Origin: Chitinophagaceae bacterium
GTDB taxonomy: Bacteria; Bacteroidota; Bacteroidia; Chitinophagales; Chitinophagaceae
Direction of reading: 5' to 3'
Assembly (NCBI GenBank): GCA_019638595.1
Contig: JAHBTJ010000005.1
Location: forward strand, 186,001 to 250,000
Length of the DNA stretch: 64,000 nucleotides
Under the pieces are notes generated by a model. It did not search any database. It saw only the letters and a program-made list of their open reading frames with translations, and was not told the origin of the DNA. The first letter of the stretch is position 1. Each line of letters opens with the position of its first letter. Of this stretch, positions 20,631 to 29,784 are shown piece by piece. A program made the translations under genes and the position numbers.

Positions 20631-20877
20631 AAAATTTTATGCCTGTTTTACAAGGGGGTGATTTTCCCTTGTAGTGGAATACGCACTATAGGCTCTTTAT
20701 TTGTAATGAATCGCCAAAGTGTAATTTTTTCCCCATTGAGGTATATAGGCAGCCATATCTCCAGTAAAATTTCCGGCAGGATATTTTCATACACATATTT
20801 ACAGGTCATTAATGGATTATCTGAACAACATCCTGATAAGAGATATAATTATTTTTGATCACTCAAGCTATAATTTT

Positions 20878-21093
20878 ATGAGTAAAACTGCATTGGATTT
20901 ACAACAACCCTGGGAAGTTGTAAAAGAGCTGTTGAAAGAAAATGATCACCGGCTTACTGATGAAGATCTTTCCTATGATCCGGGAAATGGGGAAAAGCTA
21001 TTAGAGTATTTGTCAAAAAAATTAAACAGAACCAAAGATGAAGTGAGGATTTTGATAGAAAGTATCTCTGCAAATACGGGCAAAGCATCATGA
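20878..21093 (+). CDS. CsbD-like small stress protein
   Basis: The 71-residue acidic and basic helical protein has the CsbD-like order PWEVVKELLKENDHRLTDEDL, a short turn (SYDPGNGEKL) and LLEYLSKKLNRTKDEVRILIE. CsbD-family proteins are abundant in stationary phase and under general stress; their biochemical role is unknown. The reading frame extends to an ATG at 20812, but that extension is hydrophobic and unlike the family, so I use 20878. Confidence 0.65.
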   Translation: MSKTALDLQQPWEVVKELLKENDHRLTDEDLSYDPGNGEKLLEYLSKKLNRTKDEVRILIESISANTGKAS

Positions 21094-21265
21094 CCCGCGC
21101 TGCGTTGCTTTAGAGGATCAAACAATGCTCAATCTTTGTTATATATTGACAGTATTATAGCAAAGTTTCCGCCATATTTATGCTAACTGTAATGTTCGGA
21201 GATAATAAATACAATTATGCCCGGCTGGCGGGCATGCTGTTTGTTCCTTTAAAAGAAAAAAGATT

Positions 21266-21448
21266 ATGAGCAAGTCACAATTAAGAGAAGTAGAAGTGCC
21301 TGTAAACAAGTCCGGGGCTCCGGAAAACAAGGATGATATAGATAGCCGTAAGCGGGAAGAATTTGAGATAAAAGGAGATGATGTAACGCACAATAAAAAA
21401 GAAGGAAGGCGTGACAGGTCTAAGGTAAAGAACAATATGGCCAAATGA
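21266..21448 (+). CDS. Small highly charged protein of unknown function
   Basis: The 60-residue open frame is extremely hydrophilic (many K, E, D, R; no Cys or Trp), for example REVEVPVNKSGAPENKDDID. An A-rich start region (GAAAAAAGATT) precedes the ATG. It resembles the small disordered stress-associated proteins often found beside CsbD and ferritin-like genes, but I recognise no family. Confidence 0.5.
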   Translation: MSKSQLREVEVPVNKSGAPENKDDIDSRKREEFEIKGDDVTHNKKEGRRDRSKVKNNMAK

Positions 21449-21608
21449 CGGTTTGATCATTGGAAAAATTTCCCGGTGTGGTATTATTTCCCGGGGAGCA
21501 ATGTTCACTATAGTTATGTTCAATTCGATCCCGCTGTTTTTATGAGGGATTATAAAAGTAAATGCACCGTTTTAAAACTGGCATTGTTTTTACAGTATAA
21601 GTAATGTA

Positions 21609-21697
21609 GTTTCATACGTAGGGGTGGTTTTTCAAAAAATCTGAGAATATACTCTCTAACCTGATCTGGATAATACCAGCGTAGGAAACCATGAAAC
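21609..21697 (+). ncRNA. TPP (thi-box) riboswitch aptamer, apparently orphan
   Basis: All conserved parts of the thiamine pyrophosphate aptamer are present in order. A closing helix P1 pairs GTTTCAT (21609-21615) with ATGAAAC (21691-21697). Next come the AGGGGTG strand and CTGAGA (21641-21646), and then the diagnostic CTGATCTGGATAATACCAGC followed by GTAGGA. A terminator hairpin starts 7 bases later. No thiamine gene follows on the plus strand: the next annotated gene is convergent (copper storage protein), and the next plus-strand gene, 1.06 kb away, is unrelated. Confidence 0.92.
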
Positions 21698-21703
21698 GAC
21701 AAG

Positions 21704-21730
21704 AGCTTCGGGTAAAACCGAAGCTTTTTT
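21704..21730 (+). terminator. Intrinsic terminator of the TPP riboswitch
   Basis: A perfect 8-bp stem AGCTTCGG/CCGAAGCT with loop GTAAAA is followed by a run of T residues (to 21730). Its position directly after the TPP aptamer fits the expression platform of a transcription-attenuating riboswitch. Confidence 0.88.
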
Positions 21731-21777
21731 ATATCGTGGGTATTCCTGCTTTTTATGTATGCTGCAGAACTTATACA

Positions 21778-22113
21778 TTATACATGCTCCATTTGCTGAC
21801 AGGCCCGGGCGCATTGCCTGCATACTTCTGCGCATATACGGCAATGTTCCATGTGATGATGTTTTTCACATTCTTCGGCACATTGATTACAGATCACGGC
21901 ACAGGCAGGCAGGATAATGTCCAGGCTTTCTGAACTGCGTTCGGCCAGCACGGCCGCGGCTTTACATATTTCCGCACAATCCATATCCAGCTTTATACAT
22001 TGCAATAGATTGTTTACATTTTTTTCGTTCATGCATGCTGTTGAACAAAAGTTGCATGCACCGGCGCATTTATTAAGCAATTCCGTCAATCGCTGGTTGT
22101 TTTCCTGTTTCAT
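21778..22113 (-). CDS. Four-helix-bundle copper storage protein (Csp/DUF326 type)
   Basis: The 111-residue protein is rich in cysteines spaced as CxxxC/CxxC along predicted helices: NKCAGACNFCSTAC, DMDCAEICKAAA, CAVICNQCAEECEKHHHMEHC, CAEVCRQCARAC. This is the pattern of the Csp proteins, in which cysteines line the core of a four-helix bundle and store Cu(I). There is no signal peptide, so it is cytosolic like Csp3. It may buffer copper in an organism that also has a copper nitrite reductase a few kilobases away. It is convergent with the orphan riboswitch terminator. Confidence 0.93.
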   Translation of the reverse strand: MKQENNQRLTELLNKCAGACNFCSTACMNEKNVNNLLQCIKLDMDCAEICKAAAVLAERSSESLDIILPACAVICNQCAEECEKHHHMEHCRICAEVCRQCARACQQMEHV

Positions 22114-22264
22114 ATAGTTACTTTCAAAAAAATGATACTAAAACCCTGCCATTTCATCGCTAAAACAGATATCTGTTTTCACTATACCGTTGCTGCATGC
22201 CGGGCAGCAACGGGCTTTTAGGATGCTGTGCTTTTGTTCTCCCTTATGTATATGCCACGGGTTT

Positions 22265-22396
22265 CTACCTATAAAACGGCCCATCTGGATAGCTACCTGC
22301 GCAACGTCCGGATGTTCTTACTTCTCCGTCGGTTTTATGAAGGGTATAATCCATGCATTCAGAAGGCTCGTCTGTTACGCCGCTTAATTTTGCCAT
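22265..22396 (-). CDS. Possible 43-residue protein
   Basis: This short open frame reads like coding sequence (SGVTDEPSECMDYTLHKTDG ... SYPDGPFYR) with two cysteines and a mixed polar composition. It overlaps the end of the next small frame. The same frame stays open about 100 bp further upstream of its ATG without a start, so it may be the tail of a broken gene. No family recognised. Confidence 0.25.
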   Translation of the reverse strand: MAKLSGVTDEPSECMDYTLHKTDGEVRTSGRCAGSYPDGPFYR

Positions 22397-22422
22397 TCCC
22401 TTTTCCAGCGGTGCATCAAATA

Positions 22423-22569
22423 CTATTTGTAACCCTGTGCTCGCCCATTTGCCTGTTTCCTTTCTCTTTTAGTGAGGCTTTTTCTTCCGGGGGGCATTTT
22501 GGATACCCGGTAGTAGGCATATACTGCTGCGGCTGCTATCAATAAACCGAATACATTTTTGTTTTGCAT
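22423..22569 (-). CDS. Small single-span membrane protein
   Basis: The 48-residue frame starts MQNKNVF, has one hydrophobic segment (GLLIAAAAVYAYY) and a strongly basic tail (PPGRKSLTKRERKQANGR). This N-out/C-in small membrane protein design is common near stress genes in this phylum. Its start is preceded by AAAAGATCTTT. The function is unknown and the call rests on composition only. Confidence 0.45.
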   Translation of the reverse strand: MQNKNVFGLLIAAAAVYAYYRVSKMPPGRKSLTKRERKQANGRAQGYK

Positions 22570-22794
22570 AAAGATCTTTTTTAGTGAATAAGCTGTGTTT
22601 CTTACAAAGCAAAAGATGAGCTAAGGGCTGTTTTTGGAAAGAAAAGAAATACATAATATAAATATAACATCGCCCTTATCGGTTTAAGTGCCGAATGGCA
22701 TAATTAATGCGCCTTTGTATAACTGTTATCACAAACCTATATAAACTGTTATTATGACAACATCAAAAAAGCAAAGTCCCCAATTATTTAGTAT

Positions 22795-23469
22795 ATGAAC
22801 AATATGTTAAGTTTTCACGGAAAGGCGGAAGTAAAAGAATTTTATTTGGAAAAAGTAAAAGCGTACCTGGCGGCGGGTGAAATTGCTGAAGAAGCCTGTT
22901 GGAGAAATGGAAAAGGCGTCGTTATTGATTACGATACACACAGTGTTGATCATTCAGCTTTTGAGCAGGAAATATGTATTCCTGAAATAATAGTCCAGAT
23001 AGAGAAAAGGATATTTGAAGGGTTACCTCCTTCGGAAGCCAGGAGGTTTCCCTTGCAGTTTTTGCAGGCAATTCCTGTAGGCAAAAATCTTGACGCGGTT
23101 TGGAAATTTTTTTTTGTGTGGTTATTGACTGACGAAAAGGAAGGGATGATCAATTACGCTAAAAAGGATGAAGTGAAACAGGCGATTGTAGATATAGCGG
23201 AGGCCTTAAACAATTCCGTAACAGGTCGTGCATCTGCATTGGTTTTCAAAAAATTGAAATCTACTGCTGCTTATGTGTACATGTACGCTGCCGCCAGTGA
23301 TGATGGTTCTGCCGCTGCTGCTGCATACGTTTACGCCGCTGTAAATGATGCTACGGCAGCAGCGTATGCTGTTGGGGCCTGTGCTTACGCAGCCGGCGAC
23401 GAAGATGCCAGGGAAAATAAATACTGCGCAATGCGCGACCAGCTATTGCGCCTGCTGGCTGCAGCATGA
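22795..23469 (+). CDS. Conserved hypothetical protein with Ala/Tyr-rich C-terminal half
   Basis: The 224-residue protein has an N-terminal half of a type I have seen in many bacterial and phage hypothetical proteins: KEFYLEKVKAYLAAGE, CWRNGKGVVIDYDTHSVDHSAFEQE, IPEIIVQIEKRIFEGLP, FPLQFLQAIPVGKNLDAVW. The C-terminal half changes to repeats of alanine, tyrosine and valine (AAYVYMYAAASDDGSAAAAA and similar), probably a helical repeat. No signal peptide or membrane segment is clear. Function unknown. It is the first plus-strand gene after the orphan riboswitch, but 1.06 kb away, with minus-strand genes between. Confidence 0.75.
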   Translation: MNNMLSFHGKAEVKEFYLEKVKAYLAAGEIAEEACWRNGKGVVIDYDTHSVDHSAFEQEICIPEIIVQIEKRIFEGLPPSEARRFPLQFLQAIPVGKNLDAVWKFFFVWLLTDEKEGMINYAKKDEVKQAIVDIAEALNNSVTGRASALVFKKLKSTAAYVYMYAAASDDGSAAAAAYVYAAVNDATAAAYAVGACAYAAGDEDARENKYCAMRDQLLRLLAAA

Positions 23470-23611
23470 TGAAAAGAAATGGACTTAAACACATGTTTGC
23501 CGCTAACGATGAGTATCTCATTCTTCTTTTTCCATTTTTAAAATTTACAGCTTCACTTTCTTGTTTTCACATTCTTCACTTCCACATTCCCGCATTTTAA
23601 AATCTTCAAAT

Positions 23612-24070
23612 TCATTCTATATGCTTTTCTTCTAACTCGTCCAGCGAGTGAGAAGTATGCAGGTCATTGTTTTTTAAAGATTTTTCAGACAGCTTTACAT
23701 AAAATTTTTTGAGCAATAAAAGCTCTTCTTCTGTGAGGTCTTCACTGTCTATCAAACGATTACTTGCCAGCTCCGCACTTGCTATCAGCTCGTTTAACTT
23801 CAGGTGTATTGCCGCTGTATCTTTATTTTGCGATTGTTGGATAATAAAAACCATTAAAAACGTAATAATAGTGGTAGATGTATTGATAACCAGTTGCCAG
23901 GTATCGGAAAAATGGAAGAAAGGACCGCAGATGCCCCAAATGATCACCAGGCTTGCTGCAATAATAAATGCGGCGGGGCTGCCTGTTTTATGCGTGATCC
24001 AGGTAGCGATCCGGTTAAAAAGCGAACCTGTTTTTTTTGACTGGGCAGCCTGATCATTTTTCTTTGTCAT
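23612..24070 (-). CDS. Low-affinity iron permease family membrane protein
   Basis: The 152-residue protein has the bacterial low-affinity iron permease fold (PF04120 type): FNRIATWITHKTGSPAAF, then two transmembrane helices (FIIAASLVIIWGICGPFF and TIITFLMVFIIQQ) and QNKDTAAIHLKLNELI. A charged cytoplasmic tail follows. Iron transport by bacterial members is not well established. It is probably cotranscribed with the ferritin-like gene upstream (50 bp gap containing a strong hairpin). Confidence 0.9.
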   Translation of the reverse strand: MTKKNDQAAQSKKTGSLFNRIATWITHKTGSPAAFIIAASLVIIWGICGPFFHFSDTWQLVINTSTTIITFLMVFIIQQSQNKDTAAIHLKLNELIASAELASNRLIDSEDLTEEELLLLKKFYVKLSEKSLKNNDLHTSHSLDELEEKHIE

Positions 24071-24086
24071 AAACAGACAGATTTTA

Positions 24087-24112
24087 GGAAGCCGGCATTA
24101 TTGCCGGCTTCC
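24087..24112 (-). other. Strong hairpin between two minus-strand genes
   Basis: A perfect 11-bp stem, GGAAGCCGGCA/TGCCGGCTTCC, with loop TTAT, lies between the ferritin-like gene and the iron-permease-like gene. There is no T-run after it, so it is more likely an mRNA stability or processing element, or a partial terminator. Confidence 0.55.
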
Positions 24113-24120
24113 CGGTAAAC

Positions 24121-24687
24121 TTACGCTTCAGTGCCTTCCTGCTCTGCTTCCCAGTTGATTTTGTTTTCAGCAATATCAGTGAGATGGTGATCGGTCTGTT
24201 TTTCTTCTTCCAGTGTTTTCGAAAAAATATCGGTGGCAGCATCCAATCCCAATATCTGCGCAAGAGATACCAGGCCTCCGTAGGTAGCAATTTCATAGTG
24301 TTCAACCTTTTGAGCTGCCATGATTATGCCTACATCGCGCGTCATGCTGCCATCCTGGGTCTCTTCAACGATCGTTTCCCCTTCTTTGGTAATACCTTCC
24401 ATTGCCTCACATTTTTTAGCCTGCGCTTTCTTGCCCATCATTTCAAACACTTCTTCGATCCGGGAAACATGTTCCTCAGTTTGCGCAAGGTGTTCTTCAA
24501 TGGCGGTTTGCAATTCTTCCGTGGTGGCAGCCTTTTTCATTTTGGGAAGCGTCTTGGTGAGATGTTTTTCGGCCCAATAAATGTCTTTCAGCGCGTCCTC
24601 AAAGTACTTTTCCAACTGGGTGTTATTTTGCCCCGCACCGGCTTTTTTTGAAACCTGTTTGTTTGTTGTGGATCTTGTAGTGGTCAT
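24121..24687 (-). CDS. YciE/YciF ferritin-like (DUF892) protein
   Basis: The 188-residue protein has the DUF892 pattern: LEKYFEDALKDIYWAEKHLTK, HLAQTEEHVSRIEEVFEMMGKKAQAKKCEAMEGI, DVGIIMAAQKVEHYEIATYGGL, EEEKQTDHHLTDIAEN. The E/H residues of a di-iron site in a four-helix bundle are visible. The N-terminal 20 residues are a basic tail (TTTRSTTNKQVSKKAG), as in other members. Such proteins are expressed in stress and stationary phase; exact activity unknown. It sits in a small group of stress-type genes. Confidence 0.93.
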   Translation of the reverse strand: MTTTRSTTNKQVSKKAGAGQNNTQLEKYFEDALKDIYWAEKHLTKTLPKMKKAATTEELQTAIEEHLAQTEEHVSRIEEVFEMMGKKAQAKKCEAMEGITKEGETIVEETQDGSMTRDVGIIMAAQKVEHYEIATYGGLVSLAQILGLDAATDIFSKTLEEEKQTDHHLTDIAENKINWEAEQEGTEA

Positions 24688-25195
24688 AAAATTTAATTTA
24701 TACTATTGGAGATAAAAAACAGTGCCAGCATTAAAATGTCTTGTTAAGAACCTGAGTGTAAAAGTTTTTGCCAGGCAACAGTCTGTTTCTTTAATGCTGG
24801 TAATATTCCGGAACAGGATGATCCTTTGCCGGCTTAACAGGATATGTACATTGGGGCAGCACAGCAGGAGAATGGGGTATATAATTTGAAATACATTTTT
24901 TTATTTCATTGGTCAGCCTAGGCAGGAAGTGAGTTGAATGAGCTTGTTGCCGGATGGCGCTACATCCGGAAAGTATCTCTGCCTGGTCTGGGAGTTTTCT
25001 TTCCCGAAATGAGTAAATATTTTGATAACCGGGCGCAAAAATTTAAAATAATCTTTCCTGCTCCCAATGATCAATATCACAGTTTATTCCTGATCCTGCT
25101 GCTATAATAATTGTGCTGCAGTGTGTATTGTAAAACCGGCCGATTATTTGCAACGACTTATTTATATCTATAATCTAAATTAAATTTATCACAAC
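24688..25195. other. 508-bp intergenic region with one hairpin
   Basis: This is the divergent region between the ferritin-like gene and the DUF4142 gene. A perfect 7-bp hairpin CCGGATG/CATCCGG with loop GCGCTA is present at 24950-24969, without a T-run. I found no credible open frame or known RNA. The large size leaves room for an unrecognised small RNA. Confidence 0.4.
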
Positions 25196-25762
25196 ATGAA
25201 AACGTATATCATTACCGGAATGATCGCAGGGCTTATAGCTTGTAACAGCAGTAATACATCTGATCCTGTTGAAAAAGCAGACTCAATAAATGATGCCAAA
25301 CAGGAAATTGTTTCTGATGTTTCAAGAACAAGAGAAAATACAAGCGATTTTCTTGTAAAAGCCGCTGACGGAGGATTGGCCGAAGTAGCAGCAGGGAAAA
25401 TAGGAGAAGAAAAAGCTGTAAGTAAAGCGGTGAAAGAATTTGCAAGCCAGATGGTAAAAGATCATGATGCTGTTAATAACGAAGTGAAATCACTTGCATC
25501 GAAGCTTAATATTACTTTGCCCGAGACTGCTGGAGAAGAGCATCAAAAGAGGATAGCCGATCTGGGAGGTAAGGAAACAAAGAGTTTTGACAAAGACTTT
25601 ATTGACATGATGATTTCCGATCACAAAAAAACGATTGACCTTTTCAAAGATGCGAGTGATGACGCTTTAGATCCTGATGTTAAAGCCTTTATTATTGCCA
25701 CTATTCCGTCGCTTGAAGCGCATCTTTCAAAAGCAGAGGCAATTCAAAAAACTTTTAAATAA
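25196..25762 (+). CDS. DUF4142 lipoprotein
   Basis: The 188-residue protein has a lipobox (LIAC near residue 16) and the DUF4142 helical bundle: DFLVKAADGGLAEVAAGKIG, VKEFASQMVKDHDAVNNEVK, DKDFIDMMISDHKKTIDLFK, IPSLEAHLSKAEAI. The family resembles a ferritin-type bundle and is very common in Bacteroidota, in the periplasm. Its function is unknown; the gene neighbourhood suggests stress physiology. Confidence 0.93.
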   Translation: MKTYIITGMIAGLIACNSSNTSDPVEKADSINDAKQEIVSDVSRTRENTSDFLVKAADGGLAEVAAGKIGEEKAVSKAVKEFASQMVKDHDAVNNEVKSLASKLNITLPETAGEEHQKRIADLGGKETKSFDKDFIDMMISDHKKTIDLFKDASDDALDPDVKAFIIATIPSLEAHLSKAEAIQKTFK

Positions 25763-25816
25763 CCTGTTGGATATATATAAAATCCTTACTTAAAGCGGAA
25801 ACCGTTTATAATAATT

Positions 25817-26059
25817 ATGATTGCTCCTTATTATCTGAACTTTACTTTTCGGGGAATGGATATTTCTGCAAAAGCAAGGATGCTTCATGCTGATGGCACT
25901 AAAATTTATGAAATCATTTTTTCCACAGATGAAAAGGTTACGCTTCGCCCTGTAACTGGCAGAGGTGGAAGCCGGGTATGGAAGGACCTTAAAGGAAATG
26001 TTAACGAGTTTTATCAATCATTGGGTGAGGCAATAGAGCAACAGGATGAGTTGCCTTAG
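25817..26059 (+). CDS. Small conserved-looking protein of unknown function
   Basis: The 80-residue protein reads as a compact alpha/beta domain (YYLNFTFRGMDISAKARM, TRPV-like TLRPVTGRGG, FYQSLGEAIEQQD) with no signal peptide or membrane segment. Codon use and amino acid balance look genuine. It is 54 bp after the DUF4142 gene on the same strand and may be cotranscribed. No family recognised. Confidence 0.6.
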   Translation: MIAPYYLNFTFRGMDISAKARMLHADGTKIYEIIFSTDEKVTLRPVTGRGGSRVWKDLKGNVNEFYQSLGEAIEQQDELP

Positions 26060-26094
26060 CAAAACGCTATTACAATTAGAAGCAAAAGTATAAT

Positions 26095-26358
26095 ATGTTA
26101 AACAGTACAGTTAATGCAGTGCTATGGCATGAATCATCTCATGCGGCTGCGGGAGTAAGAAAGTTGTTACTGTTACCTTATCCGTTTCATTTGCTGGATG
26201 TGGAATCTCCGGTTGATGTTAAAGGAGCCGGTAAAGAGGTAAAAGAAATTAATACCAATATATTTTCTGCAGTGAAAGAAATAAAATATTTTCCTTACAC
26301 GCCTATGCCGCCTGAACCACAAGGGTATATCAAAGCTAATAAGTGCGATCACTACTAA
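26095..26358 (+). CDS. Doubtful 87-residue open frame
   Basis: The frame follows the previous gene by 35 bp on the same strand and contains LLLLPYPFHLLDVESP and YFPYTPMPPEPQGY. The proline-rich end and uneven composition are not typical of a folded protein. It may be real or may be a chance frame in the leader of the MFS gene. Confidence 0.25.
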   Translation: MLNSTVNAVLWHESSHAAAGVRKLLLLPYPFHLLDVESPVDVKGAGKEVKEINTNIFSAVKEIKYFPYTPMPPEPQGYIKANKCDHY

Positions 26359-26421
26359 TGAAAGCATGAAAAGCATAAAAAATATTTCTTTGGAAAAGGA
26401 AAAGATCAAAGTTCTGAAAAA

Positions 26422-27876
26422 ATGAACTGGAGGCCAAAGCCGGTATTAAGCGAAACGGAAGTTGAGAGCGGAATGAAGGTAATGATCGTTGACGGACTTG
26501 CATCTGAAACAATGACAACACTTACCGGCGGGACTTTCCTTGTTGCAATGGCATTGCTTGCCGGCGCTAACAACTTTGAAATCGGGTTGCTTGCCGGGCT
26601 TCCGACAGCCACGAATATATTGCAACTGACATCCATCTGGCTGTGCAGGAGAATACAAAGTAAAAAGTTGCTTTGTGTAAGCTTATCTGTCTCAGCCCGT
26701 ATCCCTCTTATCATTATCGGGCTGCTGGCGCTCACGCTGGAGCATTTTTCTTTCAGCATCATGATCTCCATGTTGTTCTTTTATTATGCTTTTGGCTCCA
26801 TATCCGGGCCTATATGGAATGCATGGGTCAAAGACCTGGTTCCGGCTTCCAGGCTTGGGGCCTATTTTTCCAAACGAAGCAGGTACATGCAGATGCTGAA
26901 TGTTATACTTGGACTTAGCGTAGCCTTCCTGCTTGATCATGTTAAAGCATACTATACATACTTTGAGCAAAAAACGTATGGATGGATGTTCATTGTTGCC
27001 GGCATAGCAGGCATTGCCGGTGCAATATATATGGGCAGGTCGCCTGAGCCTGCAGCAGCGGTTTCAACCGGAAATATGTTTGCATTGCTCCGGAAACCGC
27101 TAAAAGATATTAATTTCAGGCGCCTGCTTTCTTTTAATTCTCTCTGGCTTTTTGCTGTGAATATTGCGGCTCCTTTTTTTACGGTTTTTATGTTGAAGTC
27201 AGTGGGTTTGTCGCTTTCTTTTATACTTATATTAGCAACTATAAGCCAGGTGTTCAGTATTCTAACCATACGGGTTTGGGGAAAATATGCCGACCGGTTC
27301 AGCAATAAAAATATCATCGCCCTGGGCGGCCCGTTATATATGCTTTGCCTTATAGCCTGGTGCTTTGTAGGGCTTAATCAAAATGAGCTTATCAATTATT
27401 CACTTCTATTTTTAATTCATGCCTGCATGGGCATGGCAAATGCAGGAATCAATCTTTCCCTTACAAACATCAGCTTAAAACTTTCTCCTTCCAGTGAGGC
27501 CGTAATATACCTGTCTGCCCGGAATATTATAACTTCTGTATTTTCTGCGGTTGCTCCTATTGTAGGTGGATTGCTGGTTGATTTTTTTTCAAACCGCTCT
27601 TTGAATGTAAGGATACAGTGGGCAGGGCCTGCCACTGAGAAAAACATCTACCTGGTTCATCTCCACCAATGGAATTTTCTTTTCATGATCGGGGCTATCA
27701 TAGCGCTTATATCGCTGGAAATGCTGATTGGAGTTAAAGAGAAAGGTGAAGTGAAAAAAGACCAGGTGGTGCGCATACTCCGCGGCAATATTAAAAACAC
27801 TATCAAGGATTATTTCATCATCAGCCAGATATTAAGCTTTCATGAAAGCATTATTGAAAAGATCCGCAAGCGGTGA
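26422..27876 (+). CDS. MFS transporter
   Basis: The 484-residue protein has about 12 hydrophobic segments and an MFS layout: VDGLASETMTTLTGGTFLVAMALLAG in TM1, then GLLAGLPTATNILQL in the position of the TM2-3 loop, and a long central loop. The substrate cannot be read from the sequence. Members with this opening (MxVDGxxSE) are usually annotated only as MFS transporters. The ATG at 26422 is preceded by an A-rich stretch. It is probably independent of the carbohydrate genes downstream (432-bp gap). Confidence 0.85.
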   Translation: MNWRPKPVLSETEVESGMKVMIVDGLASETMTTLTGGTFLVAMALLAGANNFEIGLLAGLPTATNILQLTSIWLCRRIQSKKLLCVSLSVSARIPLIIIGLLALTLEHFSFSIMISMLFFYYAFGSISGPIWNAWVKDLVPASRLGAYFSKRSRYMQMLNVILGLSVAFLLDHVKAYYTYFEQKTYGWMFIVAGIAGIAGAIYMGRSPEPAAAVSTGNMFALLRKPLKDINFRRLLSFNSLWLFAVNIAAPFFTVFMLKSVGLSLSFILILATISQVFSILTIRVWGKYADRFSNKNIIALGGPLYMLCLIAWCFVGLNQNELINYSLLFLIHACMGMANAGINLSLTNISLKLSPSSEAVIYLSARNIITSVFSAVAPIVGGLLVDFFSNRSLNVRIQWAGPATEKNIYLVHLHQWNFLFMIGAIIALISLEMLIGVKEKGEVKKDQVVRILRGNIKNTIKDYFIISQILSFHESIIEKIRKR

Positions 27877-28308
27877 TGGAGGTAAGTTTGAATATTGCTT
27901 TAATGCTTTGCTTCAACTCAGATTTTGATGTGGGCGGGATCTCTTACCACTTAGTCCTTTCTTTTTTACAATACTATCTCGCCATTTCTTTCAATATAAA
28001 TTTTTTCAAATTGAAAAACATGCAACAACCCGGGTGAGGAAAAAATATCTCACAATGTGATGCGCAGCTTTTCTAAATAACAAAAAAATGAGATACCACG
28101 GGCTTTTCAGAGCCCTTTCGTGGCGCAGGTACAGGAAAACACTGGTAAATTTAGCTTGTTATAATACGGCATTGTTTTTTCATGGTATTTATGGGCATGC
28201 GCACTTTATTGCTATGTCGCTTAACGAAGTATAGTGATGATGGGTAGTGGTATAAGATATGTTTACATAGGATGAGTCAACAATATTGATGAGTTTATCT
28301 TTTAGAAT
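27877..28308. other. Intergenic region with decayed repeat and hairpin
   Basis: Two features are visible. Around 27914-27941 the sequence CAACTCAGATTTTGATGTGG and what follows closely matches part of the 224-bp tandem repeat found at 35428-36350. A hairpin follows at about 28095-28125 (GGGCT/AGCCC, flanked by CCACG/CGTGG), without a T-run. No gene is seen. Confidence 0.5.
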
Positions 28309-29784
28309 ATGAATGTAACCATCTTCCAGTTTTTTCACTGGTACTTTCCTGCCGCACAAAATTTATGGAATCATTCAAAAGAAAAAGCGCAGCACCTGGC
28401 AGACCTGGGTGTTACGCATGTATGGCTGCCGCCGGCGTATAAGTCTGCAAATGGAACAGAAGAGCCTGGCTATGCCGTGTATGATCTGTATGATCTCGGT
28501 GAGTTTGACCAAAAAGGAACCGTAAGAACGAAGTATGGAACAAAGCAGGAGTATATTGATTGCATAAACGTCATACATGAAAAAAAGATGCAGGTGTTGG
28601 CCGACATTGTGCTGAACCACAAATTAGGCGCCGACGAGCAAGAAGAGATACCTGTTATACAGGTAAAGGAAGACAACCGTAATGAGAAAACCGGCGATGA
28701 GAAAAGAATCGTTGCCTATACACGGTTTACTTTCCCGGGACGAAACAACATGTATTCGGATTATGTGTGGGACTGGCACAGCTTTACAGGCGTTCATGGA
28801 AAAGAAGGCATTTATTTAATACTGAACGAACATACCAGTGGGGAGTGGGATAAGGTGATGGAAGAAGAATTTGGGAATTACGATTACCTGATGGGCTGTG
28901 ATATAGAATTTCGTAACCCCGCGGTGCTGGAAGAGCTGAAGAAATGGGGAGAATGGTATATGGAAACCACGGGTATAGATGGCTTCCGTTTGGATGCCCT
29001 TAAGCATATTAATGTTGATTTTTACCCGGGATGGTTGAGTTTTCTCCGGGAAAAATTTCAAAAGGAGATTTTTTGTATGGGGGAGTACTGGAAGTCGGAC
29101 CTGGATACGTTGCTGCGTTATATGGATGCCACTTCGGGCATGATACAGCTTTTTGATGTGCCGCTTCACTTTAATTTTCATAAAGCGGCCCGCGGGGGCA
29201 AGGAATTTGACCTGCGCACCATCTTCGATAACACGTTGGTGAAAGCCCGGCCGGAGCTGGCAATCACTTTTGTTGACAACCATGATACGCAGCCGCTTCA
29301 ATCGCTGGAGTCCTGGGTGGATCCGTGGTTTAAGCCTCATGCATATGCAATGGTGCTGTTGCGGGAGCAGGGAATTCCCTGTGTTTTTTATACTGCATTA
29401 TATGGCGCCTCTTATGCAGATGGTAAGGATGGCAATACCCCCCGCATTGATATTCCGCCAACTGCTGAGTTGGAAACACTGATGAAGGTGCGCAGGGATA
29501 AAGCATATGGCACACAGGCGGATTATTTTGATGACGCACATATTATAGGATGGACGCGTTCGGGTGCTGATGATCCGTATAGCGGTTGCGCCGTACTGAT
29601 CTGTAATGGAGAGGGCGGGGAAAAAACAATGAGCATGGGAGAAAAACATTCCGGTAAAACCATGTTCAATGTGCTGGATGATCAGCCAAATGAAATTGTT
29701 TTGAATGATAAGGGAGAAGGGGTATTTACCGTTGACGGGGGAAAAGTTTCGGTGTGGTTATTGAAAGAATCCAATGAAAAATAA
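28309..29784 (+). CDS. Cytoplasmic alpha-amylase (GH13)
   Basis: The 491-residue protein has no signal peptide and shows the GH13 conserved regions. These are DIVLNH, GFRLDALKH (catalytic aspartate nucleophile), MGEYW (glutamate acid/base) and FVDNHD, plus GVTHVWLPPAYKS near the start. Layout and length match the AmyA/AmyS-type cytoplasmic alpha-amylases that cleave alpha-1,4-glucans such as maltodextrin or glycogen. The next gene overlaps its stop by 11 bp. Confidence 0.95.
   Translation: MNVTIFQFFHWYFPAAQNLWNHSKEKAQHLADLGVTHVWLPPAYKSANGTEEPGYAVYDLYDLGEFDQKGTVRTKYGTKQEYIDCINVIHEKKMQVLADIVLNHKLGADEQEEIPVIQVKEDNRNEKTGDEKRIVAYTRFTFPGRNNMYSDYVWDWHSFTGVHGKEGIYLILNEHTSGEWDKVMEEEFGNYDYLMGCDIEFRNPAVLEELKKWGEWYMETTGIDGFRLDALKHINVDFYPGWLSFLREKFQKEIFCMGEYWKSDLDTLLRYMDATSGMIQLFDVPLHFNFHKAARGGKEFDLRTIFDNTLVKARPELAITFVDNHDTQPLQSLESWVDPWFKPHAYAMVLLREQGIPCVFYTALYGASYADGKDGNTPRIDIPPTAELETLMKVRRDKAYGTQADYFDDAHIIGWTRSGADDPYSGCAVLICNGEGGEKTMSMGEKHSGKTMFNVLDDQPNEIVLNDKGEGVFTVDGGKVSVWLLKESNEK

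Follow-up and report, generated by a model that had tools for sequence, protein, structure and literature searches.

Why would a TPP aptamer carry its own transcription terminator when no gene follows it? This question is raised by a locus within a 64,000-nucleotide stretch of DNA from a member of the Chitinophagaceae, the whole of which was analysed and is termed the window below. The TPP riboswitch (RF00059) is the sole Rfam match when the entire window is searched with cmscan, and it spans positions 21610-21704 of the plus strand with a score of 57.5 bits (E 1.2e-8), which exceeds the gathering cut-off of 54.3 bits. The region 21600-21740 folds with an energy 5.0 standard deviations below that of shuffled sequences, and none of 200 shuffles is as good. 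Presumably, the sequence on the pyrophosphate side of the aptamer resembles that of E. coli thiM. The following features are relevant.

21579..21594, plus strand: sigma-54-like promoter box of the -24/-12 type, TGGCAT-TGTTT-TTACA (score 19.2, the highest among the window's 23 boxes, with a matrix whose training set contained this locus; shuffled windows hold 8-18 boxes with a mean of 13.4)
21606, plus strand: predicted transcription start, an A at box position 28 (from column counts across loci, with A in 43 of 62)
21606..21730, plus strand: predicted stand-alone RNA of ~125 nt (from the box and the terminator)
21609..21615, plus strand: 5' strand of P1, GUUUCAU, pairing with AUGAAAC at 21691-21697 (from the fold and the covariation of P1; pyrimidine-rich across homologues)
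21610..21704, plus strand: TPP aptamer (Rfam match to RF00059), with CUGAGA at 21641-21646 and AACCUGAUCUGG at 21658-21669
21704..21730, plus strand: terminator hairpin with an 8-bp stem including five G-C pairs, then a T-run (from the fold and terminator scans)
21778..22113, minus strand: convergent DUF326 (Csp-like) gene (PF03860), which lies outside the RNA and is given for context; the minus strand also carries a weaker box of this type, beginning at 22151 (score 10.9)

The first-pass annotation had described a complete aptamer that has its own terminator but is followed by no gene, and each part of this description is borne out. The hairpin AGCTTCGG-GTAAAA-CCGAAGCT occupies 21704-21725, and the T-run starts at 21725. 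Our own terminator scans report 21704-21730 as a plus-strand terminator, whereas a consensus scan lists it on the minus strand only, probably because the T-run of the plus strand is partly counted into the stem. Because of this minus-strand listing, the hairpin could possibly terminate transcription in both directions and so also serve the convergent DUF326 gene, whose product we take to have a role with copper. Downstream of the terminator, the plus strand is simply the antisense of this gene, and the next plausible plus-strand open reading frame (ORF), which encodes 224 amino acids without a Pfam match, begins at 22795, some 1.06 kb away. Shorter mechanical plus-strand ORFs do occur before that position (for example 22228-22545, with a GTG start). 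No thiamine gene is located on the plus strand of the window within 1.06 kb behind the aptamer.

Two other ideas about the locus were discarded. A short peptide might have been initiated at an ATG in P1 (21691), but this ATG is not kept in relatives, as judged by eye from alignments. A phage or plasmid origin found no match among 50,697 phage and 72,556 plasmid records.

The host genome (7.06 Mb in 52 contigs) includes an RpoN gene. The first-pass annotation had also advised establishing where thiC lies and whether it has a riboswitch of its own. There is no ThiC match anywhere in the host genome, and therefore TPP supply would depend on uptake or salvage; the only other TPP match resides upstream of a gene for an 805-amino acid TonB-dependent receptor. 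As a separate observation, positions 20774-28309 of the window hold a stress-type gene cluster that includes DUF326, a low-affinity iron permease, DUF892 and DUF4142, along with an ORF at 28309 that appears by eye, from its translation only, to be alpha-amylase-like. Several promoter boxes of the same type are present in this cluster, the strongest being those at 21579, 28167 and 24727.

Similar loci were sought among relatives. Six of 12 genomes from the genus (G000, G002, G003, G004, G006 and G007) contain an additional RF00059 match followed by a terminator-like hairpin; G004 carries two such orphan loci, and the G002 copy is decayed in its 5' half. A strict terminator scan was positive for 7 of 42 flanked TPP loci, corresponding to 6 of 7 orphans (the second G004 copy was missed) and 1 of 35 ordinary loci (L017). 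The ordinary loci mostly precede TonB receptors or thiamine genes, and names assigned by eye, here as elsewhere, are based solely on translated sequence. Six sequences were then used to build R1, a covariance model that combines the aptamer with the terminator, and this model was run on 394 Chitinophagaceae genomes. Some match at E 1e-5 is found in 181 of these, many of them plain aptamers. The loci taken were the full-length R1 matches down to E 7.3e-9 (one, on contig C36 of G156, was overlooked) plus a locus found earlier in G004, a genome absent from the R1-matching ones. Of the 72 loci collected, four (L137, L142, L143 and L144) were dropped by eye as ordinary-looking and without a GC hairpin and T-run, and L146 was retained despite its very weak hairpin (-1.4 kcal). 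There are thus 68 orphan loci in the final set, from 62 genomes and 27 genera. Because R1 includes both the aptamer and the terminator, the presence of these two parts in its matches is by construction.

A wider R1 search covered 396 genomes from the order and 395 from the phylum. In other families of the order, 15 genomes matched, of which we inspected 7, and of the 23 other matching genomes in the phylum we inspected 9. The promoter-like box is missing from all 16 (the best score being 3.3); 15 have a same-strand ORF next, and at L155 no ORF was called. R1 may be insensitive outside the family. The same search yielded six further loci from within the family; the box is present at five of them, and the remaining one, L164, is located behind a DUF4142-like gene. 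Elsewhere in the phylum, nine loci that combine an aptamer with a terminator (L150-L158) look conventional, with a gene close behind in eight and an antiterminator in seven.

Sequence comparison indicates that selection acts on the aptamer-terminator element across many genera. In 63 aligned matches (62 distinct), 94.2% of pair cells hold standard pairs, and changes on both sides of a pair are seen in 377 cells, versus 84.8 after shuffling and 38-78 in slid versions; these counts are biased towards the structure, because the alignment (A3) was fitted to that of R1 and contains a probably spurious match of 31.6 bits. Two-sided changes affect all seven pairs of P1 and all ten pairs of the terminator. 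Moreover, P1 strands pair with their own partners at -10.1 kcal versus -5.8 kcal with foreign partners, and none of 20,000 permutations is as good (one locus per genus, n=26). The P1 statistics concern the 61 of 68 loci, or 26 of 27 genera, in which the stems could be located by a pattern. Of the 68 loci, 67 retain all four loose core patterns, partly by construction, given that R1 holds the core. The 5' strand of P1 is richer in pyrimidines at the orphan loci (mean fraction 0.70) than at the ordinary ones (0.55), and a UUUCH/UUCUY/UCUCU motif, chosen after looking, is found in this strand at 50 of 61 orphan versus 6 of 33 ordinary loci.

No gene is consistently associated with the element. 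The next ORF of at least 90 amino acids is on the same strand at 40 of the 68 orphan loci, on the opposite strand (convergent) at 27 and absent at one, versus 33, one and one for the 35 ordinary TPP loci; the Fisher p of 3.4e-5 for the same-strand difference is too small, as are the other p-values over these loci, since loci within a genus are related and not independent. The 40 same-strand genes among 67 nevertheless lean towards the plus orientation (binomial p 0.14), and some loci could therefore act in cis. For example, a same-strand ORF starts less than 100 nt past the end of the model match at G013 (DUF892-like) and G184 (erythromycin-esterase-like, by eye). The commonest Pfam family occurs just four times among the 67 downstream proteins. 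No thiamine family, whose presence right behind the site in a close relative the first-pass annotation had named as evidence against its reading, is found among the commonest 25 of the 67 Pfam families of these 67 neighbours. DUF326 is the downstream neighbour at 2 of 67 loci (G000 and G004), which, together with the lack of an antiterminator in the window described below, leaves the suggestion that the aptamer controls an antisense RNA over the csp gene unsupported. Among the upstream neighbours (67 of 68 loci scanned), stress-type families recur, including DUF4142 seven times, KGG four times and DUF2383 three times, and 37 of 68 loci have an ORF of opposite orientation upstream. At G126, G403 and G333 the element lies closely behind a DUF4142-type gene and lacks a box of its own, and a strong box precedes that gene. 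This arrangement is seen in genus g7 (L097, L131, L139 and L164), where the aptamer and terminator are close behind a DUF4142-type gene and thus form a TPP aptamer in a 3' UTR; at L097, L131 and L139 a strong box is located before this gene.

A conventional riboswitch of this architecture would be expected to include an antiterminator. Our measure was the longest complementary run between the 3' side of P1 and the 5' half of the terminator, a test devised after two energy-based versions. The mean longest run at the 68 orphan loci is 3.6 versus 3.3 after shuffling, with p at or below 0.05 for five of 68, which is near chance; these positives include three g102 loci plus G331. The nine conventional loci elsewhere in the phylum average 7.0 versus 4.4 after shuffling, with seven of nine positive, and the test thus separates the two groups. 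At p 0.05, the duplex-energy versions were positive for 2 of 66 orphans (with arms cut short) and 4 of 68 orphans, but they recognized only two of nine controls each and therefore have weak power. The second of these versions gives terminator-aptamer complementarity at p 0.05 or below for G006, G381, G339 and G352. In the window, the antiterminator is no better than shuffles in any version. Because no antiterminator exceeds chance, the terminator is probably constitutive.

The region upstream of the aptamer also distinguishes the orphan loci. The family box reads TGGCA[CT][GA]NTTTTTNNA and is mostly located 24-37 nt before the model match. In the window, GG at -24 is present within a TGGCA context (TGGCAT at 21579), and the GC expected at -12 reads AC. 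The A that is common at box position 28 corresponds roughly to the expected distance of a sigma-54 start, and the predicted start would fall within a few bases of P1. R1 lacks the stretch with the box, and so the collection of the loci did not depend on this feature. When each genus is left out of training in turn, the box (score of at least 9) is found at 58 of 68 loci and in 0.9% of shuffled upstream regions, with at least one match in all 27 genera. The full matrix, trained on the same orphan loci, finds it at 61 of 68 orphans versus none of 35 ordinary loci. TAnnTTTG is a box of the housekeeping type, and it precedes 1 of 68 orphan versus 25 of 35 ordinary loci. The -12 element is weak relative to the sigma-54 consensus, with G at position 14 in 12 of 62 loci and C at position 15 in 24 of 62. 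Within the window, there is no match to a strict sigma-54 pattern, a looser pattern with one mismatch is unenriched (6 found versus 8.3 expected), and a sigma-70-type scan is at chance (7 versus 7.5 expected). Other boxes in the window precede DUF892 (24727, score 17.8), a 93-amino acid ORF (20774, 14.0), csp (22151, 10.9) and the 224-amino acid ORF (22696, 10.0), of which the weaker ones could be due to chance. The sigma-54 consensus given in PMC12316311 is TGGCAC-N5-7-TTGCT. With a spacer of N5 and T or A as the last base, no more than three mismatches to it are found at 57 of 68 orphans, 8% of shuffles and 2 of 35 ordinary loci. RpoN is encoded by all 331 good genomes of the family, and so its co-occurrence with the element is uninformative.

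Comparison of sequences supports the aptamer, the terminator, their conservation and covariation, the promoter-like box, the absence of a consistent gene and the absence of an antiterminator above chance. Our favoured explanation, which we consider likely, is that the locus is a small-RNA gene composed of a sigma-54-type promoter, a TPP aptamer and a non-switching terminator, whose ~125-nt RNA is predicted to bind TPP and to act in trans. The promoter would start transcription a few bases from the aptamer, and the terminator, without an antiterminator, would end the RNA right after P1, leaving aptamer plus terminator and little else. Such an RNA would be produced while the stress-type promoter is active and would report TPP status in trans. 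We infer that the RNA is expressed, depends on sigma-54, binds TPP and acts in trans, and that the P1 strand has a role in this action.

The likeliest route would be that TPP holds P1 closed, which would hide the pyrimidine-rich 5' strand of P1 at the 5' end of the RNA. When TPP is scarce, this strand would be free to pair with mRNAs. Small-RNA seeds are often pyrimidine-rich, and there is no seed outside the structured parts of this RNA. The sole target tried was the mRNA of the thiamine TonB receptor, for which one of ten pairing tests in five species reached 0.05 and the others were not above shuffles. A more far-reaching proposal is that an entire class of aptamers in this family has been freed from cis genes, wherein a sigma-54-controlled small RNA of TPP aptamer and terminator uses the 5' strand of P1 as a seed to couple coenzyme status to the stress programme. 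We put this forward tentatively, at somewhat less than even chances.

The main rival to a trans-acting RNA is a sponge or buffer, in which a stand-alone RNA stores or titrates TPP during stress or stationary phase without pairing to other RNAs. This is unlikely, even though the RNA consists of aptamer plus terminator, begins P1 so near its predicted 5' end that no obvious seed is left once folded, and keeps its core patterns at 67 of 68 loci. A sponge would require a very high copy number, and a pure sponge has no need of the pyrimidine-rich P1 motif found at 50 of 61 loci (a motif chosen after looking). It is improbable that TPP instead controls termination in cis, before whatever downstream gene each lineage has recruited anew. 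The convergent gene at 27 of 68 loci, the lack of any downstream family beyond 4 of 67, the near-chance antiterminator result (versus seven of nine at conventional loci) and the same-strand genes at 33 of 35 ordinary loci speak against it; in its favour are the 40 same-strand ORFs (some, as at G013 and G184, less than 100 nt away) and the few loci with terminator-aptamer complementarity.

The arrangement at G126, G403 and G333, close behind a DUF4142-type gene with a strong box before it, is what would be expected of a 3'-end element that closes upstream stress mRNAs and sets their 3' end or stability. As a general explanation this is quite improbable, as the box precedes the aptamer itself at 58 of 68 loci, and at 37 of 68 the ORF upstream is encoded by the other strand. 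The first-pass annotation had further proposed a remnant left after a thiamine operon moved, and we find this hardly credible. Although the host genome lacks a ThiC match and the copies in G002 and at the second G004 site look decayed, covariation and core conservation over 27 genera contradict a relic. In addition, the ordinary riboswitches of relatives lack a terminator (34 of 35) and a box (35 of 35), and so loss of the gene from a plain riboswitch would not produce this element. The annotation's other guess, a stand-alone RNA, agrees well with the promoter-like box, the lack of an antiterminator above chance or of a common downstream gene, and the covariation over 27 genera.

The putative small RNA shares with the TPP riboswitch (THI element, RF00059) its aptamer fold and core, scoring above the curated cut-off. 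Unlike that riboswitch, it has no regulated gene, no antiterminator above chance, and a stress-type rather than a housekeeping-type box. Among ligand-sensing non-coding RNAs, EutX is a relative of the Rli55 system. The B12-riboswitch RNA Rli55, as described in PMC8079631, likewise places an aptamer inside a non-coding RNA gene, but that aptamer governs the production of a longer RNA that carries protein-binding ANTAR elements, whereas here the terminator is directly behind the aptamer. The Listeria SAM riboswitches SreA and SreB, which act in trans on prfA, are terminator-ended riboswitch RNAs able to act on another mRNA, as we predict for the present RNA; SreA differs in that it also controls its downstream operon in cis, and here there is no consistent downstream gene (PMC8079631 for the Listeria RNAs). 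For the promoter, the closest likeness is motif SM4 of Flavobacterium psychrophilum, representing Bacteroidota sigma-54 promoters, which is a -24/-12-type box associated with stress-related genes; according to PMC9723704, sigma-54-type promoters in this species drive protein-quality and envelope-stress genes. The orphan-locus boxes differ from SM4 in their weak -12 GC, and sigma dependence here is predicted.

Trans-acting riboswitches are called rare in PMC7266159, and Listeria examples are given in PMC8079631. The examples considered here either have an additional cis role or form the front part of a longer RNA. No description of a stand-alone TPP-aptamer RNA in Chitinophagaceae was found in the literature searched, judging from titles and abstract openings among the matches listed. 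If our proposal is true, an aptamer alone can be a complete regulatory gene, consisting of aptamer and terminator under its own stress-type promoter, and thiamine status would be linked to a stress programme. The proposed RNA is readily open to testing in cultured relatives whose copy is intact.

Several individual loci merit mention. The second orphan copy in G004 (L076, C24:77719-77812) has a box scoring 15.6 and a core that reads ACATGCT instead of ACCTGAT, and it is possibly a decaying or changed copy. L041 (G002 C1:282626-282744) has apparently lost the 5' half of its aptamer but retains the 3' core together with the terminator; no box was found there. Two TPP matches only 28 bases apart in G046 (C68:13145-13361) are likely to be a tandem riboswitch. 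On visual inspection, P3 seems enlarged in the orphans of genus g85 (L100, L101, L102, L106 and L120), and as a result the R1 match starts inside the aptamer. Finally, L107 is one of two orphan copies located ~5 kb apart in the same genome (G246 C1:3988300-3996600).
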